NCBI RefSeq assembly: GCF_963678975.1
Contig: NC_089272.1
Coordinates: 61,020,574-61,084,573, forward strand
DNA: 64,000 bases
Direction of reading: 5' to 3'
Origin: Dysidea avara
Taxonomy: Eukaryota > Porifera > Demospongiae > Dictyoceratida > Dysideidae
Part shown: piece after piece, positions 7,201-54,642 of the stretch
How the letters are laid out: every line of letters begins with the position of its first letter
Numbering within the stretch: the stretch's first letter is position 1
Notes under the pieces: model-generated
Seen by the model: only the letters and a program-made list of their open reading frames with translations
Told to the model about the DNA's origin: nothing
The model's database searches: none
Made by a program: the position numbers and the translations under genes

Positions 7201-10143
7201 TATGAAAAATTTGATGAACCCAAAATGGATCAAAAAAATATTAAACTACGAAAATTTGGAGCCGTACGGTGGTATACAGTGTATGATTTTTGTATTGATC
7301 TATTATTATGAGAAGCACATATGGGGTCATTAATTTTCATGCTGTTTATAATACAACGGCATTCACACAAAATTGTAAGAGCTGATAGCCATTAGCATAA
7401 AATCTGATATTGGTGATGCCATATAAAATTTTCAGTAAGTCAGTAAAATTCCATATAGTGGTAAACTGCTATTGTGAGCATGAGTGCATGATTGTTTAAA
7501 TGTGTCAATTGCATATAGGACCATTTATCAAATGCTTCTTCTGGACCAGAGATATGGAGCGATTCTGATGATGAAGATGGACCTCTACAAGATGAGGAAC
7601 CTTTACAAGATGAGGAATCTTTATAAGATGAGGAACCTTTACAAGTTCACCTAAATACCTATAAAACAACAGTACGACTATTGGTATTATTTCTATTCAT
7701 GTGGAAGGTGATGTTCCAAATTTCAAACATAGCAACAGAAATGTTGCTGCGGGGTTTGTATTTGATTTTACATCATATTGCCACTATTACATCTTCAGGC
7801 AACTTCATACAAGCAATAAATTTTTTTCCGGACACAATTGCCAAAGCCAGAAAGTTCATAAATTTAGAGCAGGAAAATTTTGAGCAGTATGTGTGTTGTC
7901 CTAAATGCTGTGCCATTTTTAAAATAGGAGATTGTTTTGAACAAATAGGTAGTTGTACAGTTCCAAAAGTTTGTTCAGCTGTTAAATATCCTCGACATCC
8001 AAGACCTTCTTGTAGGGGTCACTGTCAATACAATCTTTTGAAGGTGGTAAGAATGAATAAAAAAGAAGTTTTTAGACCACTGAAAACTTACTGTTATAAA
8101 TCAGTCACATCATCATTGACTGACATTCTATCTCGCCCTGGTATTTTGCACATTTGTGAGCAATGGAGAAGCTGCTACATTTTTCCTGAACTTTTTGCCG
8201 ATATTTGTGATGGAGCAGTATGGAAGCATTTTGAGGACAATGGACATTTCTCTCAATCATATTCATATGGCTTGATGCTCAATGTAGACTGGATGGAGCC
8301 TTTTGAGCACAGCATATATTCTGTTGGAGTGATTTATTTATCATTATTGAACCTGCCTCGTGAAATTCGCTATGCCCAAGAAAATATTATAATATGTGGT
8401 TTGATTCCTGGCCCTAAAGAACCATCCTATAACATTAATTCATTTCTTGAGCCATTAGTAACAGACCTCCTGCATTTGTGGAGGGGTACAGAGATTACCC
8501 TTCCACATGGCAAAATAAAAATTAGGGCTGCTTTGATATGTGTAGCATGTGACTCACCTGCCACAAGAAAAGTTGGAGGATTTTTGTCACATGCAGCGAA
8601 GAAAGGTTGTTTTAGGTGTCATAAGACTTTTCCATGTGAAAGATTTGGAAAGAAATCGGATTACAGTGGGTTTGATCGTGAGAACTGGATTTTGAGAACA
8701 CATGCAGAATGCTTTGCACTTGGTATGAAGCACAAACATGCAAAGACTGCTTCAGACCAGATTTCTATTGAAAAAGAACATGGAATTCGGTATACAGCCC
8801 TGATAAATTTACCATATTATAATGCAGTGAACTTTTGCATAGTAGATTCTATGCATAATTTGCTGCTTGGCAGTGCAAAAAAATTCGTAGAACTTTGGAA
8901 GAAAAGTAATGGAGTAGGACTTAGTGAGCTAGAAGTTATACAACAGGCTGTTGATCAATTTACTGTTCCTGCTGGAATTGGGCGATTCCCCAGAAAAGTT
9001 GAAGGTGGAAGTGGGTTTTCAAATTTTAAAGCTGAAGAGTGGAAAAATTGGGTGCTAATATATTCATTAATTTGCTTCAAGCCTATTCTTAATCCGGAGC
9101 TCTATTCACTATGGATAGTATTCACACATGCCTGTGCATTACTTTGTTCTCGTGCAATCACCGGTTCAAACATAAACCGTGCTGACCATCTTATTCATGG
9201 ATACTGTTGTATGTTTGAAGTTGTATTTGGAAAAGAGAATTGTTACCCAAATTTACATTTACACTGCTATCTTAATAATTGTTTATTTGATTACGGTCCA
9301 TCGTCATCATTCTGGCTGTTTGGATTTGAACGAATGAATGGAGTTTTAGGTAGTGTACACACAAATAAACAAGCAGTCGAAATTCAGCTGTTTAGAAAGT
9401 TTATCAGCAAGCAACAAGTAGGCAGTATTGAATGGCCAAGTGGTGAACTAGCTAAGACTCTAAAACCTTTATTAGACAGTATGCAGCCTGATAGAGATAA
9501 AATTAACTATGGAGGATGTTTTCTTCATATATTATATCCCTTTGATAGTGCAGCTATCTTGGAGTCAAACAAATGCTGTAAACTGCTACCAAGTATCAAG
9601 GAGAAAGCCTTTTCAGCTAATGACCATCATTTAATTCATCAATATTTTGCTTTTCACTATGGAGATGTGTATACAAAAACACTTATTTTGCACAAAGAAT
9701 CGTCATCAGTGATGTTTAACGGATCCTTGTATGGAGGATATTTTTCCAGACAAAAGAACAGTTCACTTGTCATTGCGCGTACAAAAAGCATATCTGGTGA
9801 GGTCCAAGAGCAGCCCTTCCTTGTTATAAGGTTTGTTGAGTGCACAGTTGTGTTTAAGCAATCAAGATCACCCCAAACTTGTTCTAATGTGTTGGCTAAA
9901 GTCATTCCTCTTCAACATCACCCTCAAAAATGCTTTTACCCTAAACCTGTTGAAGTCTGGAATAGACCTGAAGATGATTCAATTAAAAATCCTTCACTTC
10001 ATAGATATGTTTTTATTTCATCTATTCTGTGCCGTTGTGCACATTGTCCGTTTGTCAGCACTGCAAGCCAAGATGTAGATTGTATGACTGCAATTGCAGT
10101 GATTCCATGTAACTCTTATTTTGGATGTGGAAATTATATTTGA
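4278..10143 (+). pseudogene. CACTA tnp2-type transposase, three exons, one nonsense codon
   Basis: Exons are 4278-4466, 5799-5948 and 7519-10143, all phase 0, with AAG|gtatgt and ACA|gtatgt donors. Exon 1 encodes a small Cys/His module (CDHCGCYVC then TWYNHR). Exon 2 is acidic. Exon 3 is a long transposase of about 870 codons with the family's PRPSCRGHCQYNLL, LMLNVDWMEPF, GLIPGPKEPSYNI, ALICVACDSPATRKVGGF and VDSMHNLLLGSAKKF blocks. That last block is the diagnostic tnp2 D-x-MH region. A TAA at 7624-7626 (overall codon 149) interrupts an 18-bp repeat encoding LQDEEP/S; sister repeats have CAA there, so it is a C-to-T change. Otherwise the reading frame is open to 10141. It would catalyse excision and insertion by binding the element ends. 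Confidence 0.88.
6190..6490 (-). pseudogene. HIRAN-like domain fragment inside the transposase intron
   Basis: Intron 2 of the transposase (5949-7518) contains a minus-strand remnant. One frame gives VRGFHVH; the next gives RGEIFPCTRELLNAHNIFAVKVTK; a third gives ALPRTQYQIIQH. Together they follow the HIRAN order (GxHxY, then GE.l.C.RE..N..D.fAV, then GH.PR). At least two frameshifts are needed. This could be a captured or inserted host fragment. The match is by motif order only. Confidence 0.4.
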
Positions 10144-11413: not shown

Positions 11414-14361
11414 CTAGAGTTTGTTAAAATTGGTAGAAATTGGCGCTCTAGAGCAGCGGTGGCAAGGGCACAAAAAGTGAAATGTACAAGCTCTCTCAGG
11501 GTTGAACTTATTAGTAAAATGCGACCATAAATAGTTAGTTAAACGATATTTAATTGTGTTGGTAGATAGTGAAAGATCAATGACTGGTAAGTAATTGTAT
11601 AGTCTGGCTATCCTGTTAAAGTAAAAATGATGTTGTGTTACTGATGATGTCCTTGGATGATTCAGGTTTTGGTCAATCCCAGATCTGGTGTTGCCTCTTG
11701 CAAAAGTGATGTAGTTGTAGATGTTAAAGTTATCAGTGGGTGACTTTAATGATTTTATTAGAAACAGTACATCTTGGAGTTCGTAGTGATACATGAGAGG
11801 CAGGAGATGCAGTTGTTCCAGTCTGAGTTTGTATGAGGATGTGTAATCGTTAAGGATATATTTAGTGGCTCTTCGTTGAATGCGTTCTAGTGCAGTAATG
11901 TCTCTTATTAGTTGAGGCCTCAATAGTTGTGAACAATATAATAGTTGTGATCTGACTAGTGCTAGGTATAGACGTTTCTTTGCCTAAGCACTGTTAACCT
12001 GGAATGTTCTTCTGATAAGTCCTAAGGTTTGGTAAGCTTTCATACATATGTTGTTATAATGTGCTGACCAGCTGAAGTCAGATGTGAATGTTACTCCAAG
12101 ATCTTTATGCTGTGCTAAACATTTAATAGGATTTTCATTGATGGTGTATGTAGGGGGGACTGTTGTAGTCGAGAAGAAACGTAAATGAATAAATTTGGAT
12201 TCGTTGAAAAGTAAGTCAGTCAGGGTGCTCCAATTAGAAGCTCTGTTGATATCAGTTTGTAACTTTGTAGTATCTTCACGAGATCTAATTGCATATAGAA
12301 GTTTGGTGTCATCAGCGTATATAAAAGGAGTTGCAAATTGAATGAATTCGGGTAGGTTGTTAATGAAAATGACGAATAACAAGGGTCCTAAGACACTTCC
12401 TTGGGGCACCCCTGAATGTACATAACATAATTCTGACAGTGAATCTCCTATCTTGACACATTGATAGCGATTGTGTAGATATGCTTCAAACCACTGTCTT
12501 GCTTTACCAGTTATTCCAAAGGTTTGTAATTTGCCAAGTAAGTGGTGGTGAGAGACAGAGTCAAACGCTTTCTTGAAATCCATGTATTCTACATCCACTT
12601 CACATTTGTTAGGTTCAAAGACTTTTTCTGCAAATACTAGTAGCTGCTGAAACGTAGATCTTCTAGGAAGGAAACCAAACTGATGTTTGGTGGATTGTTC
12701 TCTGACACGATTAATTATATTATTATACACAATTCTTTCTAGAACCTTTGATAAAATACATAACAGTGAGATGGGTCTGTAGTTGCTCACAGAACTTTTG
12801 TCCCCAGATTTGTACACAGGAACCACACAATGAGTGCGCCAGTCAAGAGGAATAAAACTGCATGATATACTCATGTGAAAAAGATGGCAAATTATATGAA
12901 GTAATGGCCCTGCACAGTGTTTGAAGATTTTTGGGCTAAAGCTGTCAATGCCACAAGCTTTGGTTTCATCAAGAGATATAAGTAAGTCAAGGACGTCAGA
13001 ATCAGAAAACAGAGTATCTTGAACATGAGGAGTGACACTGCTTGATTGTGAGTCAGATACAGATGATGTTGAACCTGTAAATGTAGAAAAAACTGAGTGG
13101 AAATAATTGTTAAATAGTTGAGCTTTTTCCGAGTCAGTGGATGCTGATTCATTTATGTAGTGCATTTTAGCAGGAAAGCTTTCTCGCCCTTTGATACTTG
13201 ATATATATTTAAAAATTTTGTTGCTATTACTGTGAGCATAATTTAAAGCTAGATTTGTTTCATAATCATGCTTAGCTTCAGTTATCATCTGTTGTAGTTC
13301 CCTTTGTAGATCCTCCACTTTAAGTCTTTTCCTTTCTGTAGGATGTCTCACAAGTTGTCTCTTAGTAGTGCGGAGGCACTTGATTTTGTGACGGATTGTT
13401 GAGTTAAACCACTTAGGATGATTTGATTCTTTAATAGAGATCTTAGGAACATATAGATTTAAAGCACTATTTATGGCAGTTTTCAGGTATAGCCAGATAA
13501 ACTCGACATTTTTAGAATTCAATGCTAAGGTAAAGTCATATTCGGTAAGGAATTGGTTCATGTCCTCCCAGTTAACTTTATTGTAATCTAATCTTTGTAT
13601 ACGTATTTTTTGTAGGTTTGCTGAGGACATGGTTAATGAGAAGTTTTATCAAATAATGGTCAGATGAGAGGTTGGGTGGTAGGTTTGTGCAGGTTTCAAT
13701 ATGTTGAAGGCCACTAATATTAGACAAGGCTATGTCTAGGGTGTTCCCAGTGCTATATGTGTGGGGCCAGTTACGCATTGAATCAAATTGAGTCCATATA
13801 CTACTTCTGCGAAATCATCAGCTGTGGGGGAACTACCACTGTAGATACTCCAGTCTATGTCAGGAAATTTAAATCTCCCAATAATACAATGTTTTGGGTA
13901 CTATCAAATGAATTGAGGTATGCCATGAGTGAGGTATTATATTGATCAGAACAGTTAGGTGGACGATATATCAGACACACGAGCAAATTTGGGTCTATCT
14001 CAGCAGAGACTATTTCTAAATCATTTGGAGAGGATAACTGCGTTACTGTGAGGAAAGATTTGAAAGCTAATAATACACCACCACCTCTACTATCTCGATC
14101 TTTTCTTAAAACAGTGTAGCAAGAGGGAAATATTTCATTAGTAAAAATGTTAGTTGAGAGCCAAGTTTCAGTTACTCCAATTATGTCAAAAGTTTGAGAG
14201 TACACATACGATTGAAAAGCAGTAATTTGTTTGTTTAAACTACGTGCGTTCCATAGGAGAACTTTGAGATTACTGCTGCCACTTTTAGTATCTGATTCTT
14301 TGAAATTGATTGTGTGATCATGTGTATAATTTGTAGAATCATGAACTTGTCTGTTAGGTAG
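11414..14361 (-). pseudogene. LINE ORF2: AP endonuclease and reverse transcriptase, broken
   Basis: The endonuclease begins near 14290 with LLWNARSLNKQ, then ITVTETW-like GVTETWLS, LIYRPPN and LLGDLNF. The RT (13630-11984) has YMDFKKAFDSV (motif A), SGVPQGSVLGPLLF (B) and FIYADDTKLL (C). The C-terminus (11923-11414) has the usual LINE RIQRRATKYIL helix. Lesions: a 1-bp loss near 13858 at the NFPDIDW position, frameshifts near 13765 and 13640, and an in-frame TAG at 11983-11981. It is in the same frame as ORF1, separated by one TGA, and no ATG lies near its 5' end. Confidence 0.87.
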
Positions 14362-23249: not shown

Positions 23250-23286
23250 CAAGAATTTGTAATATAAATTATATTATGAACTCTTG
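23250..23286. mobile_element. Short CAAGA...CTCTTG palindrome (foldback-family end)
   Basis: A 37-bp near-palindrome, CAAGAATTTGTAATATAA facing TTATATTATGAACTCTTG. A further right-end-like TATATTATGAACTC lies just upstream (23229). No 7-bp duplication is visible, unlike its relatives at 26858 and 30067. Confidence 0.5.
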
Positions 23287-26282: not shown

Positions 26283-27000
26283 AGGGACTACAAAGGTGTG
26301 GGCTTGGCCCATGAAAAAACATCACCAGCCTCAATTTTCTCTGACGACAATTAGGTAGTATTTGTTAGGTAAAACTAAACCCAAACAAGCTTTCAGATCA
26401 ATCCAAACTGCTTTCAACGAGTTGCTATGGAAATGGAATTTTCTACTCACTGACTGACTGACTCTGATGCCTTCAGAAAGTGTAACTCGATAACAGGTAA
26501 GGCTATGGGCTTGATTTTTTTTGCTGTTCGGTGCCTTTTGGCTTACCGCAGTATGTACAATGTATTCTTCATGGACTTACAGTGTCCTCCTTTGTGTCCC
26601 ATTCATCTTGGCTGACAGCAAAAAGTGTCTATTTGGTGGTAGAATATCTGGCTTCCCTTAATAACGGGGAAAACGTCATAGTGGCTACTTTGGTTTGCAC
26701 AATCCCTAAAAATTTGACAATAGCACCAGGTTGGTACATTTATTTCCTAATTTTTCGGCCAGACATGAATGGAATTACATGTAATTTATTTCTGCTGATT
26801 TTTTAGGGAATCTATGGTATTATAACTTTTTATTGTTTTACTATGATTTATTATCGTCAAGAGTACATACGTAATAATGCTTATTATGTACTCTTGTTAT
26901 CGTGCACTACTCCAGCTTGTTTCAGTACTTTTTATTGGTGTGCTATGATATACTCTAGTTGATAATTCCAATTTATTGTGTACTTGTCATTGTTATCATT
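26283..27000 (+). repeat. Dispersed repeat, copy 1
   Basis: From GGCTTGGCCCATGAAAAAAC onward (GACTGACTGA, GATGCCTTCAG, TAACTCGATAA, TTTTGGC-TACCGCAGTA) it matches 29453-29830 in the same orientation. The right part (26905-27000) matches the arms of the foldback at 30893-31190. No coding frame is conserved between copies. Confidence 0.75.
26858..26896. mobile_element. 39-bp palindromic micro-element with perfect 7-bp duplication
   Basis: CAAGAGTACATACGTAATAA faces TTATTATGTACTCTTG. TTATCGT stands directly outside both ends (26851-26857 and 26897-26903). The termini match the longer foldback elements at 43416, 44149 and 54396, which also have 7-bp duplications. Confidence 0.85.
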
Positions 27001-28130
27001 GCCTTCCTGGGTAGTAGTTATGTTCAGCCCGGTGACCCTTCCAACATAGGTGCCCTATTTGTAAAAATTGTAGTATGATCTATAATGTGTGGCTTGTAAT
27101 AGGTTCCTTCCTATGTGAACGAATAGTGCGGTATCTTATCATGCTACACTAGATTGATGCTGCAACCAAGATATTATTCATCCATCTCTACATAACAAGA
27201 AGCCAATTGACAATGATGATACCTACCTAAGTGAGTGTTAATTGATCAAGTTAACTTGTCTGTTAACTCTATATACACTTACATCCACATACCAGAACCT
27301 CACAACATGTATATGTACAGTAGGCTTTCCAAATTAGCACATTGTAACCCACTATTACCTTAGTAAATTCACTTACAGTCCATAGTTGAGTCCATCCACT
27401 CCCTGCCTACAAGTCCAAAAGTTTATCTACCAACAAGGTTATACATCGACACACCAAACCGACAGTTTGTGCCCAGAGGTATGACATGAAATAAGTGCCT
27501 TCAGAAAGGATTGCATACTTAGAACTTTTTAAACTGCAAAAAGTAATGTCGTAACAGTCTTTGAAGGATTTTAAGGCTCTCTGAACACTGTTTACTTCAT
27601 TATAAGTAGTGCTCTTCCCTGGTGGCTGCTTATCCTCCATTTCATGTAGAGTTCATACTATTATTGGGGGGGGAGTATTCTGTAGGTGTCAATTATCCTA
27701 ATGCCTACCAGTGATGCCACGATACATTGTATACGTGTGATAGAAGCCATTGCATGATGATTGCGATAGAGAAAAATCAAATTATGTAGTGAAAAATGAC
27801 TTGATATATTTTGTAAATAAAAAATTATGAGGATATTTCTCTGGCAATATGTGGTGATGCCTAAAACACAAGTGTCAACTTTGTCAAATCATTGTAAATC
27901 GATTGAATAAAACTTGTCCTGTGAAAGCATTAACATATTCAATTCATTTAATACATCATGCCTATCATGATATACAGTAAATCCCATGTTATTGTGACAT
28001 TAAAATTTTCACCTTGTGGGATCACTACTACCTACAGTGTACATGTGTTGGTTGGTCAGGCTTTTGCTCAGTTTATAGCTACAAAGATTGTTGTAGGGCA
28101 GCTTCAATAAGCAACCCATTGGAGGTACTA
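27001..28130. other. Mostly featureless interval
   Basis: Apart from the weak frame at 27407-27640 I see no gene. A G-run lies at 27666-27673. Confidence 0.35.
27407..27640 (-). CDS. Unrecognised 77-codon open frame
   Basis: A minus-strand frame starting with MEDKQPPGK and ending in a Leu-rich segment. No family is recognised and no splice partners were found. It may be a chance frame; I list it only because it starts at a proper ATG outside identified repeats. Confidence 0.2.
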   Translation of the reverse strand: MEDKQPPGKSTTYNEVNSVQRALKSFKDCYDITFCSLKSSKYAILSEGTYFMSYLWAQTVGLVCRCITLLVDKLLDL

Positions 28131-28320
28131 CCATATAGCCTAAATATTTCGAGGTTGAACAATGTTGCTAAAATAAAAATTTTGTGGATTTGCAAACACT
28201 CCCAAAATGTATTAGACTATATGGAGGTCTAAATAATTCAAGGCTAAAATTTTTGCTGATATACCCCAAAACTACGAATTCAGCAAAAAATTTCCCCCTC
28301 GTAATATTTAGGTTGTACAG
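28131..28320. mobile_element. 190-bp MITE with TA duplication
   Basis: The left end CCATATAGCCTAAATATTTC, then GAGG, mirrors the right end read on the minus strand (CTGTACAACCTAAATATTAC, then GAGG). TA flanks both sides (28129-28130, 28321-28322). Mariner-type insertion is inferred from the TA site. Confidence 0.75.
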
Positions 28321-29452
28321 TATCAACACTCAAAGTGTTAAAGTGATATCCTACAGATTTCAGTGTTTTACTGAAATACTTCATGCCATTGCATAACTTA
28401 ACAGATTCCCATCTGTACAGGCTATACTGAAGTAGGATACTCCCCCTATAATGTTCTGAATTCTCGACGTTATTTGTCACAAGACAATAGACTGATTACA
28501 CCACTGAATTTAGCACAAGAAAAGTTTTCGATTGGTACATAGTTTGTAGTACCACCCCTTCAAAACAAGCTCTCTATATAAGCCTTATGGTGCTCATGTA
28601 AACGTCATACCTCTATACCAGTTGTGGGTCATTTTATGAGAAAGATGCTGTTTGGTCACACTTAGGTGACTTAAGAGTCAGTGCTTGAAAATCCACTGTG
28701 TCATGCATACATACATTTGTACACATATGTATGCTTACTTTATTATAGGTTTCTTTCATGGGATACACCCAATAACAATGGCTACTGGATTACTTTGACA
28801 CTACATAATATGATCAAAGATACACGTTGAACTAGTTCCACCCAAGATGAATATTTGTGATATGACACACTTTATTACTTAGCGACATAGTCATAGATGT
28901 ATGCATACAATGTATATTTTTTTACACTTGTTAATCTATTGTATATCATTTATATCTCTTATAAAAGGTTTATAACTCCTTCAACTTTATCACTAGCATT
29001 TCCTGCAAGAAAAGGTATTCAGAACTAAACAAAATTATCATTCCTTACTTTGAGTTGCTGTTCCTCTGTTAAACACTGGAACTTGTGGAGTGTTCTATGC
29101 AAAAACCATTCAAAGAATAAATCAGTAAGTCTATGAAAACTTTAATGAGGGAAATTACACTTAAGTTGTACTAAATTAATTAGAATATATGTCAGGAAAG
29201 GGCATTTTTGTACACACTTCTGACTTAAGATGACATACAATATCAAAGGAAAGGGTGTATTTCTTTAACTGAAAATGTTGAAAAAAAATTACAGAATAGT
29301 TCTGATCTTGAATTTACCACCTTTTGTAATTCTTGTATCCACTGTGCTAGGGATGCAGAACTCTGAAATTTCGATCACACTGTAAATAATAATAATCTAG
29401 CCTATATAGTAATGAAGGTAAACGGTAGTATTAGTAGGAACCACTAAGAAGT
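28321..29452. other. No gene seen
   Basis: AT-rich, no supported frames, no strong repeats noticed. Confidence 0.4.
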
Positions 29453-30060
29453 AGGCATGGCCCATGAAAAAACATCACAAAAACTAGCCTCACCTTTTCC
29501 AGACAATGGTGAGGCAGTACTGGTTAGACAAAACTAAGCCCAATCAAGCTTTGAGATTAACCCAATATGCTTCAATAAGTGCTACAGAATTTTTAAAAAT
29601 TAACAGAGTTTTCTAGCGAGTAACTGACTGACTGATGCCTTCAGACAAGCGTAACTCGATAATGGCTAAGGATACAGGCTTCACTGTTCGATGTCACTTT
29701 AGTCTGAGAGGTGCCTTTTGGCATACCGCAGTACGTACAATGGAATCTTCATGCACTTACCAGTGTCCTCCTTTGTGTCCTATTCATCTTTGCTGACAGT
29801 GAAAAGTGTCAATTTGGTAGTAGCATGTGATGGCTTCTCTTCGTAATGGAAATCGTCCATATCATTCATTTTGGCTATTTGATTGCAGAGGTGCTTTCAA
29901 ACAGTTCTTGATTCGTAATGCTATGTAATGGGTTGAACATAGCTGTATAATGGATACTTCACTTTTCAGACAATTATTGATAGCTAGGGCGCTCAGCACC
30001 ATTTCTTTCGTTTTATGCAGTATGAGTGGTTATAATAATTTTATTACAAAACAGTTAAGG
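29453..30060 (+). repeat. Dispersed repeat, copy 2
   Basis: Aligns with 26283-26650 through the GACTGACTGA, GATGCCTTCAG and ACCGCAGTA landmarks, then diverges. It is followed by its own micro-palindrome at a non-homologous position. Confidence 0.75.
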
Positions 30061-30066
30061 TAGCAG

Positions 30067-30097
30067 CAAGAGTAAATAATTCCATTATTTACTCTTG
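30067..30097. mobile_element. 31-bp palindromic micro-element with perfect 7-bp duplication
   Basis: CAAGAGTAAATAAT faces ATTATTTACTCTTG around a 3-base centre (14-bp perfect arms). GTAGCAG stands directly outside both ends (30060-30066 and 30098-30104). Confidence 0.85.
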
Positions 30098-30104
30098 GTA
30101 GCAG

Positions 30105-31190: not shown

Positions 31191-31262
31191 TAATTGTCTA
31201 TTCACTGGTTTATCTAATTGTGACCAGATCTGTAAAAACCAAACACAATCATGGGGAGATGA

Positions 31263-32088
31263 GGTGGCCACTGTAAGATGGGTTATCTCAGCAGCAAATG
31301 ACCAAATGCACACTGTATGGCTACAACTACTGTGTTAGTCCCCCCTGTCGAAAGATGGAACATCTTGGCAGGTGGCCACTGTAAGATGAGTCATCTTAGC
31401 GGCAAAGGACCAAATGTATGCTCTGTATGGCTATAACTACTGTGTTGGTCCCCCTGTCGAAAGATGGAACATCTTGGCAGGTGGCCACTGTAAGATGAGT
31501 CATCTTAGCGGCAAAGGACCAAATGTATGTTCTGTATGGCTATAACTACTGTGTTGGTCCCCCTGTCGAAAGATGGAACATCTTGGCAGGTGGCCACTGT
31601 AAGATGAATCATCTTAGCGGTAAAGGACCAAATGTATGCTCTGTATGGCTATAACTACTGTGCTGGTCCCCCTGTCGAAAGATGGAACATCTTGGCAGGT
31701 GGCCACTGTAAGATGAGTCATCTTAGCGGCAAAGGACCAAATGTATGCTCTGTATGGCTATAACTACTGTGCTGGTCCCCCTGTCGAAAGATGGAACATC
31801 TTGGCAGGTGGCCACTGTAAGATGAGTCATCTTAGCAGCAAAGGACCAAATGTATGCTCAGTATGGCTATAACTACCGTGTTGGTCCCCCTGTCGAAAGA
31901 TGGAACATCTTGGCAGGTGGCCACTGTAAGATGAGTCATCTTAGCGGCAAAGGACCAAATGTATGCTCTGTATGGCTATAACTACCGTGTTGGTCCCCCT
32001 GTCGAAAGATGGAACATCTTGGCAGGTGGCCACTGTAAGATGAGTCATCTTAGCGGCAAAGGACCAAATGTATGCTCTGTATGGCTAA
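31263..32088. repeat. 109-bp satellite array, about 7.6 units
   Basis: GATGGAACATCTTGGCAGG starts at 31354, 31463, 31572, 31681, 31790, 31899 and 32008, exactly 109 bp apart each time. Units contain AAGATGAGTCATCTT, a palindrome holding TGAGTCA (AP-1 type), in six of eight units; the first unit is diverged and one has TGAATCA. Each unit also has AAGATGGAACATCTT. The array ends 447 bp before the kinase ATG. Confidence 0.93.
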
Positions 32089-32535
32089 ACTATTGTGTTG
32101 TGGGAACTAAAATACATTGATAAATGATGCACAAAGAGTTTAATCTAGGTTTTACGAAAGTTTAAGGCTTAGGTTCTTACCCCCGTAGTACAGCACTGGA
32201 AAGAATATGTAGTTGTGGCGTGGCAGGCCTACTTTTTTCACAGATCAGAGTAGTCCACACGAGACTAGTTGTGGTACATTATATCTCACCATTTATTGAA
32301 TTCCCTGGGCAAGTACTTGTTCTCCGCGGTATAATATTGTCCATAGACCAACGAATATTTCTTCCTGCTTCATGGTAGTCACGTGCAGACAGTGGCCGGC
32401 GCAAAATCACGTTTCACCATTCACTTCGCACGCCCCATAACCAGATTGCAGCATTAGCTATATAGCTAACTATGTGAAATAGCTAGCAATTGTATCATAT
32501 AGCTACTGGTTTATTCACAGTCCCTATTCGCTGCC
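32089..32535 (+). promoter_or_regulatory. Upstream region of the kinase gene
   Basis: No other gene lies between the satellite and the ATG. A GCCGGCGCAAAATCACG stretch near 32395 and several AGCTA repeats near 32455-32490 are present. Promoter role is inferred from position only. Confidence 0.35.
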
Positions 32536-33749
32536 ATGGATGGTGAAGAAGGCAGCTGTTCTCATTCTGAGCAAAGACGTACCCCCACATTTCGAAGAAA
32601 TACACGAGAGGAAAAACGCTCAATGAGAAATTCTCGTGCAAGGCGTCTTCGTAAAATGAAGCTGAAAAAGCGAATGGAAACTTCCCTGGCAGAATCACAC
32701 GAGGAAAACGCTGATCTTAGGCGTCAAGTTAAAACCACTCAAACAGAAATGGATAAGGCAAAGAGTCAAATTGTTACTTTGAAGTGCATGTCAAGAACCT
32801 TTTGGGAGCATTGGAGGTGGGAAGCAGAAAAGAGGAAAGAAGAATTCATAAGCAGCAGAAAATTCGGTAGTAGGCCATTAAGTGACAAACTCAGCCATGA
32901 TATTCATGAAATCGATCCACTGTTACTGACCAATCCAAGTGGAAGGCAGGAAAACCACTACCTTGGTCGTGGTAGTTTTGGTATTGTAACACTGAAAATT
33001 TACCGAGGTATTTATGCTGCTGTAAAGCAAATGCATGTCAAGACTGCGGTACAAGATATTATAAATGAAGCCAAAATGCTGGCATGCCTTTGTCATCCAT
33101 TTCTGCCCTTTTTGTTAGGAGTGTGTACATCAACAGAACCTTTTAAGATAGTCATGCAGTTTCATGGCTTATTTGGTAGTGAGCTTCCTTACTCAACCAC
33201 ACTGAGGCGAGAGTTAGACCAACGTCATCTTGGCTTGAGTGATGCTGACTGGATCAGTGCTTGTGCGCAAATATTGGAAGCATTTGATTATTTGCACAAC
33301 ACAGTTGAGATTATTCATAATGATGCAACTGGTACCAATGTGCTACTGGGCAGTCCAACAACACTTCCATTGGAATCCTCATCACCTGTGTGCCAGGCTG
33401 GAACAGGAAGGTATCAAATACTTGTAATTGACGGAAAGCAACCAAGGAAAAACTGGGTAATTTTCTTTATTTAAGTGCACGTGAACAAGTTGAATATCAG
33501 CGAAAATTTCCCCAAATTGCTCCAGAAATTGTGGAGGGTGGAAAAAGGCAGTCGACATTTAGTGACATGTACTCTGTTGGAGGAATACTATACCAAATTG
33601 CCGAGAGTGACTGCATTTTTTGCAGCTCATCAAAAAAAGCACTTTTAACAATTGCAGAGAAATGCCGAAATGTGCAATATTTAAAGCGATTAACTGCAAA
33701 GCAAGCAATGCAACAATTACAAGACAGTGTAGTGGACTCAGCAGAGTAA
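32536..33749 (+). pseudogene. Protein kinase with N-terminal coiled coil, frame broken at DFG
   Basis: The start ATG has a GCCATGG context. Residues 18-50 are very basic, and 45-85 form a coiled coil. The kinase domain follows: glycine loop GRGSFG (144-149), AVK lysine (164), helix-C Glu (about 178), catalytic HNDATGTNVLL (261-271) and VID (297-299). HND replaces HRD, and the usual loop Lys is absent. Immediately after this Asp the expected Phe-Gly codons are disturbed, and the frame is lost until 33474. The correct frame resumes with EQVEYQRKFPQIAPEIVEGG (the APE motif) and runs to 33747. The net change is one base short of the frame. The C-terminal AGAGTAAGTATG could hide a splice donor. 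Tyrosine-kinase-like group is possible; substrate unknown. Confidence 0.8.
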
Positions 33750-43415: not shown

Positions 43416-43669
43416 CAAGAGTACATAATATTTATATGTGGGAGAGTATTTAACTTGAATGCATTCACCAAACACCCTGTGTAAAGTAACAGTTCAGCCT
43501 TTTGTGAGAACAAAGGTTTTGCCCTCATCAACACAAATCAACAGTTCTCTATTTCCAGTGAAGGTGATGATTTGATGAAAGGTGAACTTTGGTGAACTTT
43601 ACACAGGGTGTTTGTACAGGCCATACTGAGTGTTAGATACTCTCCCCATATAAATATTATGTACTCTAG
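43416..43669. mobile_element. 254-bp foldback element, CAAGAGTAC ends, 7-bp duplication
   Basis: CAAGAGTACATAATATTTAT is mirrored at the right, and the arms continue through GGGAGAGTA and AAACACCCTGTGTAAAGT. Flanks GTGACAT (43409-43415) and GTTACAT (43670-43676) differ at one base. The last bases are CTCTAG instead of CTCTTG. Confidence 0.8.
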
Positions 43670-44148: not shown

Positions 44149-44608
44149 CAAGAGTTCATAATATACATACTAAGGAGAGTATCCTACTCTCATATACCCC
44201 TGTAGAAAGGCGTATCGTGAAGTTATGACGTAACACTTCTGAGTTCGCCCGTTTTTCTTTGTATAATTAATGATGTCATTAGTTGAACATGGTATCGATT
44301 GAACGCGTGCCTACCAACGTCGCTAGCAACCAAATTAACTCCAGCTCTAAGCGTTTCTCACCCAACTACAATCGTTCCTTCATGGGGTAAGACCGCTTCG
44401 TAGGCGTTTCTTACTAGGCCATTCGCGAATACGGCTATCCTGAGCATCGCAAGTATGAAACGGTGCTAACGATTCTTGCACTATTACGGCTTCCTGTACG
44501 TCACAAACCACAACATCTTGTCGTTACGTCATAACTTCACGATACGCCTTTCTACAGGGATATATGAGAGTAGGATACTCTCCTTAGTATATATATTATG
44601 AACTCTTG
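44149..44608. mobile_element. 460-bp foldback element, about 87-bp inverted ends, 7-bp duplication
   Basis: CAAGAGTTCATAATATACAT starts arms that stay nearly identical through GGAGAGTATCCTACTCTCAT and GAAAGGCGTATCGTGAAGTT to GACGTAAC. ATATAGC flanks both sides (44142-44148, 44609-44615). The interior is CpG-richer and lacks a gene. Confidence 0.88.
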
Positions 44609-54395: not shown

Positions 54396-54642
54396 CAAGA
54401 GTTTGTAATACTGATTTGTATGGGGGAGAGTGTCTAACTCTCAGTATGGCCTGTACAAACACCCTGCGTAAAGTTCACCTTTCATCAAATCAACACCTTA
54501 ACTGGGGGATAGAAAACTGTTGATTAGTGTTGCTGAAGAAGGTAAAGCCTTTGTTCTGAAATAAGGCCGACGTGTTACTTTAAGCAGGGTGTTTGGTGAG
54601 TGCATTCAAGTTAGACACTCTCCACTTTATTACGAACTCTTG
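54396..54642. mobile_element. 247-bp foldback element, perfect 7-bp duplication
   Basis: CAAGAGTTTGTAATA faces an inverted CAAGAGTTCGTAATA. The arms share GGAGAGTGTCTAACT and AAACACCCTGC-TAAAGT. GTACAAC flanks both sides (54389-54395, 54643-54649). Same family as 43416, 44149 and the micro-elements. Confidence 0.9.

Follow-up and report, generated by a model that had tools for sequence, protein, structure and literature searches.

Excision footprints of P elements are already known, as are foldback P elements that duplicate 7 bp of their target. In Drosophila, the P transposase leaves 17-nt 3' tails, and two reports outline repair-mutant junctions in which microhomology or templated insertions link these tails, with a target copy on each side (PMC2895639, PMC7776569). 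The short palindromes analysed here resemble the end-joined P sites of Drosophila melanogaster, in which, according to the same outlines, the duplications flank up to 17 terminal nucleotides of each inverted repeat, with microhomology or templated filler (PMC2895639, PMC7776569). Drosophila P has an 8-bp duplication, a fixed 17-nt tail and laboratory junctions from repair mutants, whereas here the duplication is 7 bp, the kept arms reach 29 nt, the outer terminal modules reach 32 nt, and the palindromes have accumulated naturally, in thousands. Galileo, a Drosophila transposon of the P superfamily, shares with the elements described here a P-type transposase, foldback-like copies and 7-bp duplications (PMC3573991, PMC2775673, PMC4168063), and the view, taken earlier for this DNA, that no described family combines foldback structure with a 7-bp duplication does not hold. 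The ends of Galileo differ from those found here, and the available parts of these papers do not mention a class of micro-palindromes (PMC3573991, PMC2775673, PMC4168063). Zebrafish Pdre2 and THAP9 are alike in belonging to the P superfamily, in having ends that start with CA and in being excised with subsequent end joining; as summarised, they differ in an 8-bp duplication and in the bigger flanking deletions seen after the zebrafish enzyme has excised an element in fly cells (PMC10983969). Stowaway and mariner elements are also described as leaving short terminal remnants and a duplicated target after excision (PMC4561436).

The window (the whole 64-kb stretch of DNA analysed) contains two near-perfect palindromes of the form CAAGAGT...ACTCTTG. 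The first, 39 bp long (26858-26896), lies between perfect copies of TTATCGT (26851-26857 and 26897-26903); the second, 31 bp long with arms of 14 bp and a 3-nt centre (30067-30097), lies between perfect copies of GTAGCAG (30060-30066 and 30098-30104). Both are proposed excision footprints. A third candidate footprint of this family (37 bp, 23250-23286) is decayed or complex and lacks matching 7-mers. Three larger elements in the window share the ends of the micro-palindromes: a non-autonomous 254-bp element with the inner motif GGGAGAGTATC (43416-43669), in which the right end is damaged (CTAG in place of CAAG) and the 7-bp repeat has one mismatch (GTGACAT/GTTACAT); a 460-bp foldback element with 86-nt arms that are 98% complementary, flanked by a perfect repeat of ATATAGC (44149-44608); and a non-autonomous 247-bp element, also with the inner motif, flanked by a perfect repeat of GTACAAC (54396-54642). 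The window was also scanned without reference to any family, for 8-bp inverted ends directly abutted by direct repeats of 6-10 bp, over spans of 18-700. Six matches were obtained. Four of them (26858-26896, 30067-30097, 44149-44608 and 54396-54642) were CAAGAGT elements, and each had a perfect 7-bp repeat. Twenty Markov-shuffled windows contained no case that combined a span of 60 or less with a repeat of 7 or longer. The coordinates reported for the two palindromes in the sequence-only reading were exact, and the scan found both again.

Other features of the window include an open 838-aa frame that matches Transposase_21 (tnp2) at 7627-10143, and a reverse transcriptase frame (RVT_1) at 11984-13645 with more frames on the same strand upstream and downstream; IMG/VR contigs contained no relative of this reverse transcriptase. 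A tandem array with a 109-bp unit (7.7 copies, 96% matches) occupies 31262-32100, just upstream of a protein-kinase-like frame (32503-33474). The presence of kinase, reverse transcriptase and tnp2 frames together would suit an animal host. Neither an Rfam family at the gathering threshold nor a tRNA was detected in the 64 kb.

Next, the host genome (550.8 Mb, 108 contigs) was searched, using the reversed pattern as control. The pattern CAAGAGT-N(11-30)-ACTCTTG (25-44 bp) was present 2178 times compared to 41 in the control. IMG/VR contigs held no exact micro patterns. Numbers dropped with size (707 vs. 23 at 45-74 bp, 194 vs. 32 at 75-104 bp), with the class petering out beyond about 60 bp. 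Among the 75-104-bp matches listed, many were unrelated repeats and a few were ordinary derivatives formed by deletion, with the inner motif retained (e.g. C1:25307554 and C3:8932655). Many of these matches belonged to a dispersed repeat starting with CAAGAGTCAGGACTTCATATGG or its reverse, which is separate from the CAAGAGT family.

We examined the flanks at 50 places of the 25-44-bp class, a non-random sample that corresponds to the first 13.4 Mb of contig C1. The adjoining 7-mers were identical at 27/50 places and matched at 6/7 positions or better at 37/50, compared to 0.9% and 3.5% of mispaired flanks (n = 2450); repeat lengths of 4-6 and 8-11 gave no perfect repeats at these places. Genuine 7-bp target duplications across the genome are supported. 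The 7-mers differed by two or more mismatches at 13/50 places, and two of these (L012 and L039) resolve into somewhat larger elements whose 7-bp repeat is perfect. Both are nested, with an additional copy of the end within a larger palindrome whose outer 7-bp repeat is perfect, and they resemble the templated insertions of Drosophila. When copies borne on larger repeats were counted once, 21/42 sites had perfect repeats and 29/42 had at least 6/7. The 45-74-bp class (20 places, the first 22 listed minus two already in the sample) had 9/20 perfect repeats, 12/20 with at least 6/7 and 8/20 with two or more mismatches. The 34 perfect duplications at CAAGAGT sites, once symmetrised, favoured T at position 2 and A at position 6 (88% each), and the same bases prevail in the GTANTAC consensus given for Galileo duplications (PMC4168063).

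That the duplicated 7-mer is derived rather than ancestral, as the sequence-only reading had supposed, was borne out at the one repeat family tested. The flanks of a 28-bp palindrome (L029) were joined with one copy of the 7-mer and searched against the genome, and 40 of 2139 candidates were scored. The joined flanks aligned to 40 dispersed-repeat copies with 90-95% identity, and no copy differed in net length by more than 5 bases; therefore none of the 40 paralogues holds the 28-bp insert. In the four paralogues aligned (4/4), the palindrome was absent and the 7-mer was single, indicating that the duplication at this site is derived.

The long CAAGAGT elements begin with CAAGAGT, continue with 12-24 variable bases and then reach the conserved inner motif GAGAGTGTCTAAC (1035 and 954 ends genome-wide, none in the control). 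The outer module was 20-32 nt long across 42 CAAGAGT ends compared, all among the matches listed, and 18-32 nt over all the ends compared from this and a second family described below. Two pairs of inverted CAAGAGT ends had the spacing of autonomous elements, one of 4.9 kb (C1:15277064-15281997) and one of 5.1 kb (C1:16001075-16006177). The central 2 kb of the first was read and contains a frame that matches PF21787, the RNase H domain of the P-element/THAP9 transposase, at 37.6 bits (cut-off 24.6). This element of autonomous size, of the kind that the sequence-only reading suggested looking for, is about 4.9 kb long and encodes a P-type transposase. The hAT, Dada and Mutator groups, considered as options for a 7-bp duplication, were dropped once this transposase was found inside a CAAGAGT element.

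PF21787 had at least 151 matches in the genome (150 of 447 candidates scored), and 13 of the matching P-transposase loci were chosen for analysis of their ends. Seven of the 13 had CATAGAT ends in inverted orientation and a perfect 7-bp repeat, over spans of 4.5-5.6 kb. One further locus (L056) has inverted ends and lacks a clean repeat, and its left side abuts another putative footprint; in L051, L052, L054, L057 and L101, no inverted ends with a 7- or 8-bp repeat were present in the stretch examined. One CATAGAT element (L053) matched both PF21787 and PF21789. This 4467-bp element (L053:573-5039) also has a 373-aa frame on the opposite strand (L053:547-1668) with no Pfam match at E 0.01. A sequence search against solved structures gave no match for either transposase fragment, and the frames scanned for a THAP domain, which are gene parts and not spliced models, gave none either. 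The two families combine a P/THAP9-type transposase, a 7-bp target duplication and inverted repeats starting with CA (CAAGAGT and CATAGAT), all of them traits of the P superfamily, in which duplications are 7 or 8 bp long; ends reported for it elsewhere are CATGATG and CATACCT (PMC10983969, PMC2895639, in the parts available).

The micro-palindromes were then compared with the long elements. The inner motif was present in 0/73 micro-elements (fetched and window sequences together). Parental ends were taken by hand from among the matches listed, and 63 arms matched CAAGAGT ends over at least 17 nt; none passed the G/AGAGTGTC junction of the best-matching end and four ended exactly on it. The arms were cut back unevenly and independently, from the full outer module down to about 8 nt, and several micro-elements retained just 8-12 bp or so of one arm. 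The longest kept arms were 29 nt. A limit of 17 nt, as in Drosophila, was considered and dropped when arms of 20-29 nt appeared. Stowaway and mariner elements, whose transposase is of a class other than P-type, leave remnants much shorter than these. That kept arms stop at the inner motif would be compatible with staggered cleavage leaving long 3' tails. The idea that the inner motif is a THAP site is not favoured, as the THAP sites of P and Galileo are placed about 41-70 bp from the end in the account available (PMC3688188).

An in-place internal deletion, by replication slippage over a foldback hairpin or by abortive gap repair, would draw on the foldback arms that are present and on the ordinary derivatives, noted above, that keep the inner motif (C1:25307554, C3:8932655). 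Such deletions should end on both sides of the inner motif, yet 0/63 arms cross it and 0/73 elements contain it, and the class thins out beyond some 60 bp. P elements that are not foldbacks also leave remnants that stop at this limit, and we consider internal deletion very unlikely. These non-foldback elements are of the CATAGAT type, with inverted repeats of just 31-41 bp. CATAGAT-N(11-30)-ATCTATG occurs 2327 times in the genome compared to 65 in the control. At the first 20 places listed, 7/20 had a perfect 7-bp repeat, 10/20 had at least 6/7 and 10/20 had two or more mismatches, while mispaired flanks gave 1/380 perfect and 3/380 with at least 6/7. None of 51 CATAGAT elements contained the inner motif; two arms exceeded the junction, by 1 and 2 nt, the 2-nt case being ambiguous owing to microhomology. 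One micro-palindrome (C1:2489682) retains the outer module of L053 exactly (25/25 nt), and another, beside L055, retains 17/18 nt of the L055 outer module. The nine perfect duplications at CATAGAT sites, symmetrised, had T at position 2 and A at position 6 (67% each). In a separate case (L037:1459-1535), a CATAGAT and a CAAGAGT candidate footprint adjoin, with three copies of the 7-mer ATATAAC separating and flanking them; one target seems to have been used successively by two P-type families.

True micro-transposons, that is, elements of 25-45 bp that are themselves cut and pasted with the terminal 14-18 bp sufficing, would account for the perfect 7-bp duplications and the shared ends, and they also predict the empty sites without an insert. 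The 42 independent sites carry 41 distinct sequences, so there is no copied family, nor the many near-identical copies at independent sites that mark a MITE; several palindromes have merely 8-12 bp or so of one arm, and the inner motif seen in the long elements is present in 0/73. Micro-elements that recurred unchanged at several sites were considered as a sign of transposition and proved to form five groups of larger-repeat copies, each carrying one putative footprint. Cut-and-paste of such elements is accordingly a most improbable account. Hairpins, either as intermediates that insert or as hairpinned donor ends like those of hAT/RAG excision, are suggested by the folding of all three small window palindromes, as single strands, into hairpins with 3-nt loops. 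Opening of hAT/RAG hairpins leaves a few palindromic bases, in contrast to the 20-29 nt of transposon end kept here; the arms are often unequal and the transposase found is P-type, which leaves the hairpin account with next to no credibility. The sequence-only reading had described complete insertions that need only 14-18 terminal bp or that arise from inserting hairpin intermediates, and none of these claims is supported (41/42 sites distinct, arms often uneven, inner motif in 0/73). Support was obtained for the ends shared with ordinary foldback elements, the 7-bp duplications, their derived state at the one repeat family tested and the autonomous-size element.

Judged on sequence, the micro-palindromes are probably footprints left by the excision of P-superfamily transposons and of short non-autonomous elements related to them (probability roughly 0.88), and most likely not micro-transposons. 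Remnants of both ends lie between the target duplications and differ at each site. This reading is preferred because the remnants lack the inner motif and their arms were trimmed independently, because 41/42 independent sites are distinct and members longer than about 60 bp become scarce, and because the architecture is that of Drosophila P excision junctions from repair mutants.

In the mechanism that we propose, a P-type transposase would insert the element with a 7-bp target duplication, and both the transposase and the duplication are visible in the sequence. At excision, the cut at the 3' end would coincide with the border of the element and the cut in the 5' strand would lie further in; to judge from the sequence kept, this inner cut would fall at the junction between the variable outer module (18-32 nt) and the conserved inner motif. 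Both donor flanks would then bear 3' tails of nearly identical sequence. By enzymes such as those acting in Drosophila, the break may be sealed by end joining, which would use short microhomologies, many of them palindromic, and in some cases copy in filler. The expected product, with remnants of the left and then the right tail between two copies of the duplication, is the pattern observed, while the site of the inner cut, the 3' tails and the mode of repair are inferred. We give even odds to a more specific proposal, in which the P-type transposase here would set its second cut by the inner motif and not by a fixed 17-nt ruler, so that modules of 18-32 nt would leave matching tails. The outer module would then be a freely evolving spacer, and the thousands of scars would amount to a naturally made collection of microhomology-mediated end-joining events from the germ line of an animal.

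The scale appears to be new, as do retained tails of up to 29 nt whose kept length apparently depends on the position of the inner motif; literature searched by title and abstract opening yielded no survey of P-type footprints across a whole genome. This one genome contains about 5,000 candidate scars in excess of the control, copies within larger repeats included. For annotators, short palindromes with target duplications can be scars and not minimal transposons, and transposon activity gauged by full copies alone overlooks the excised ones. The scars would let P-element cutting and repair be studied by sequence alone, and they could show the site of the inner cut for terminal repeats of each length, the microhomologies chosen and the frequency of copied filler.
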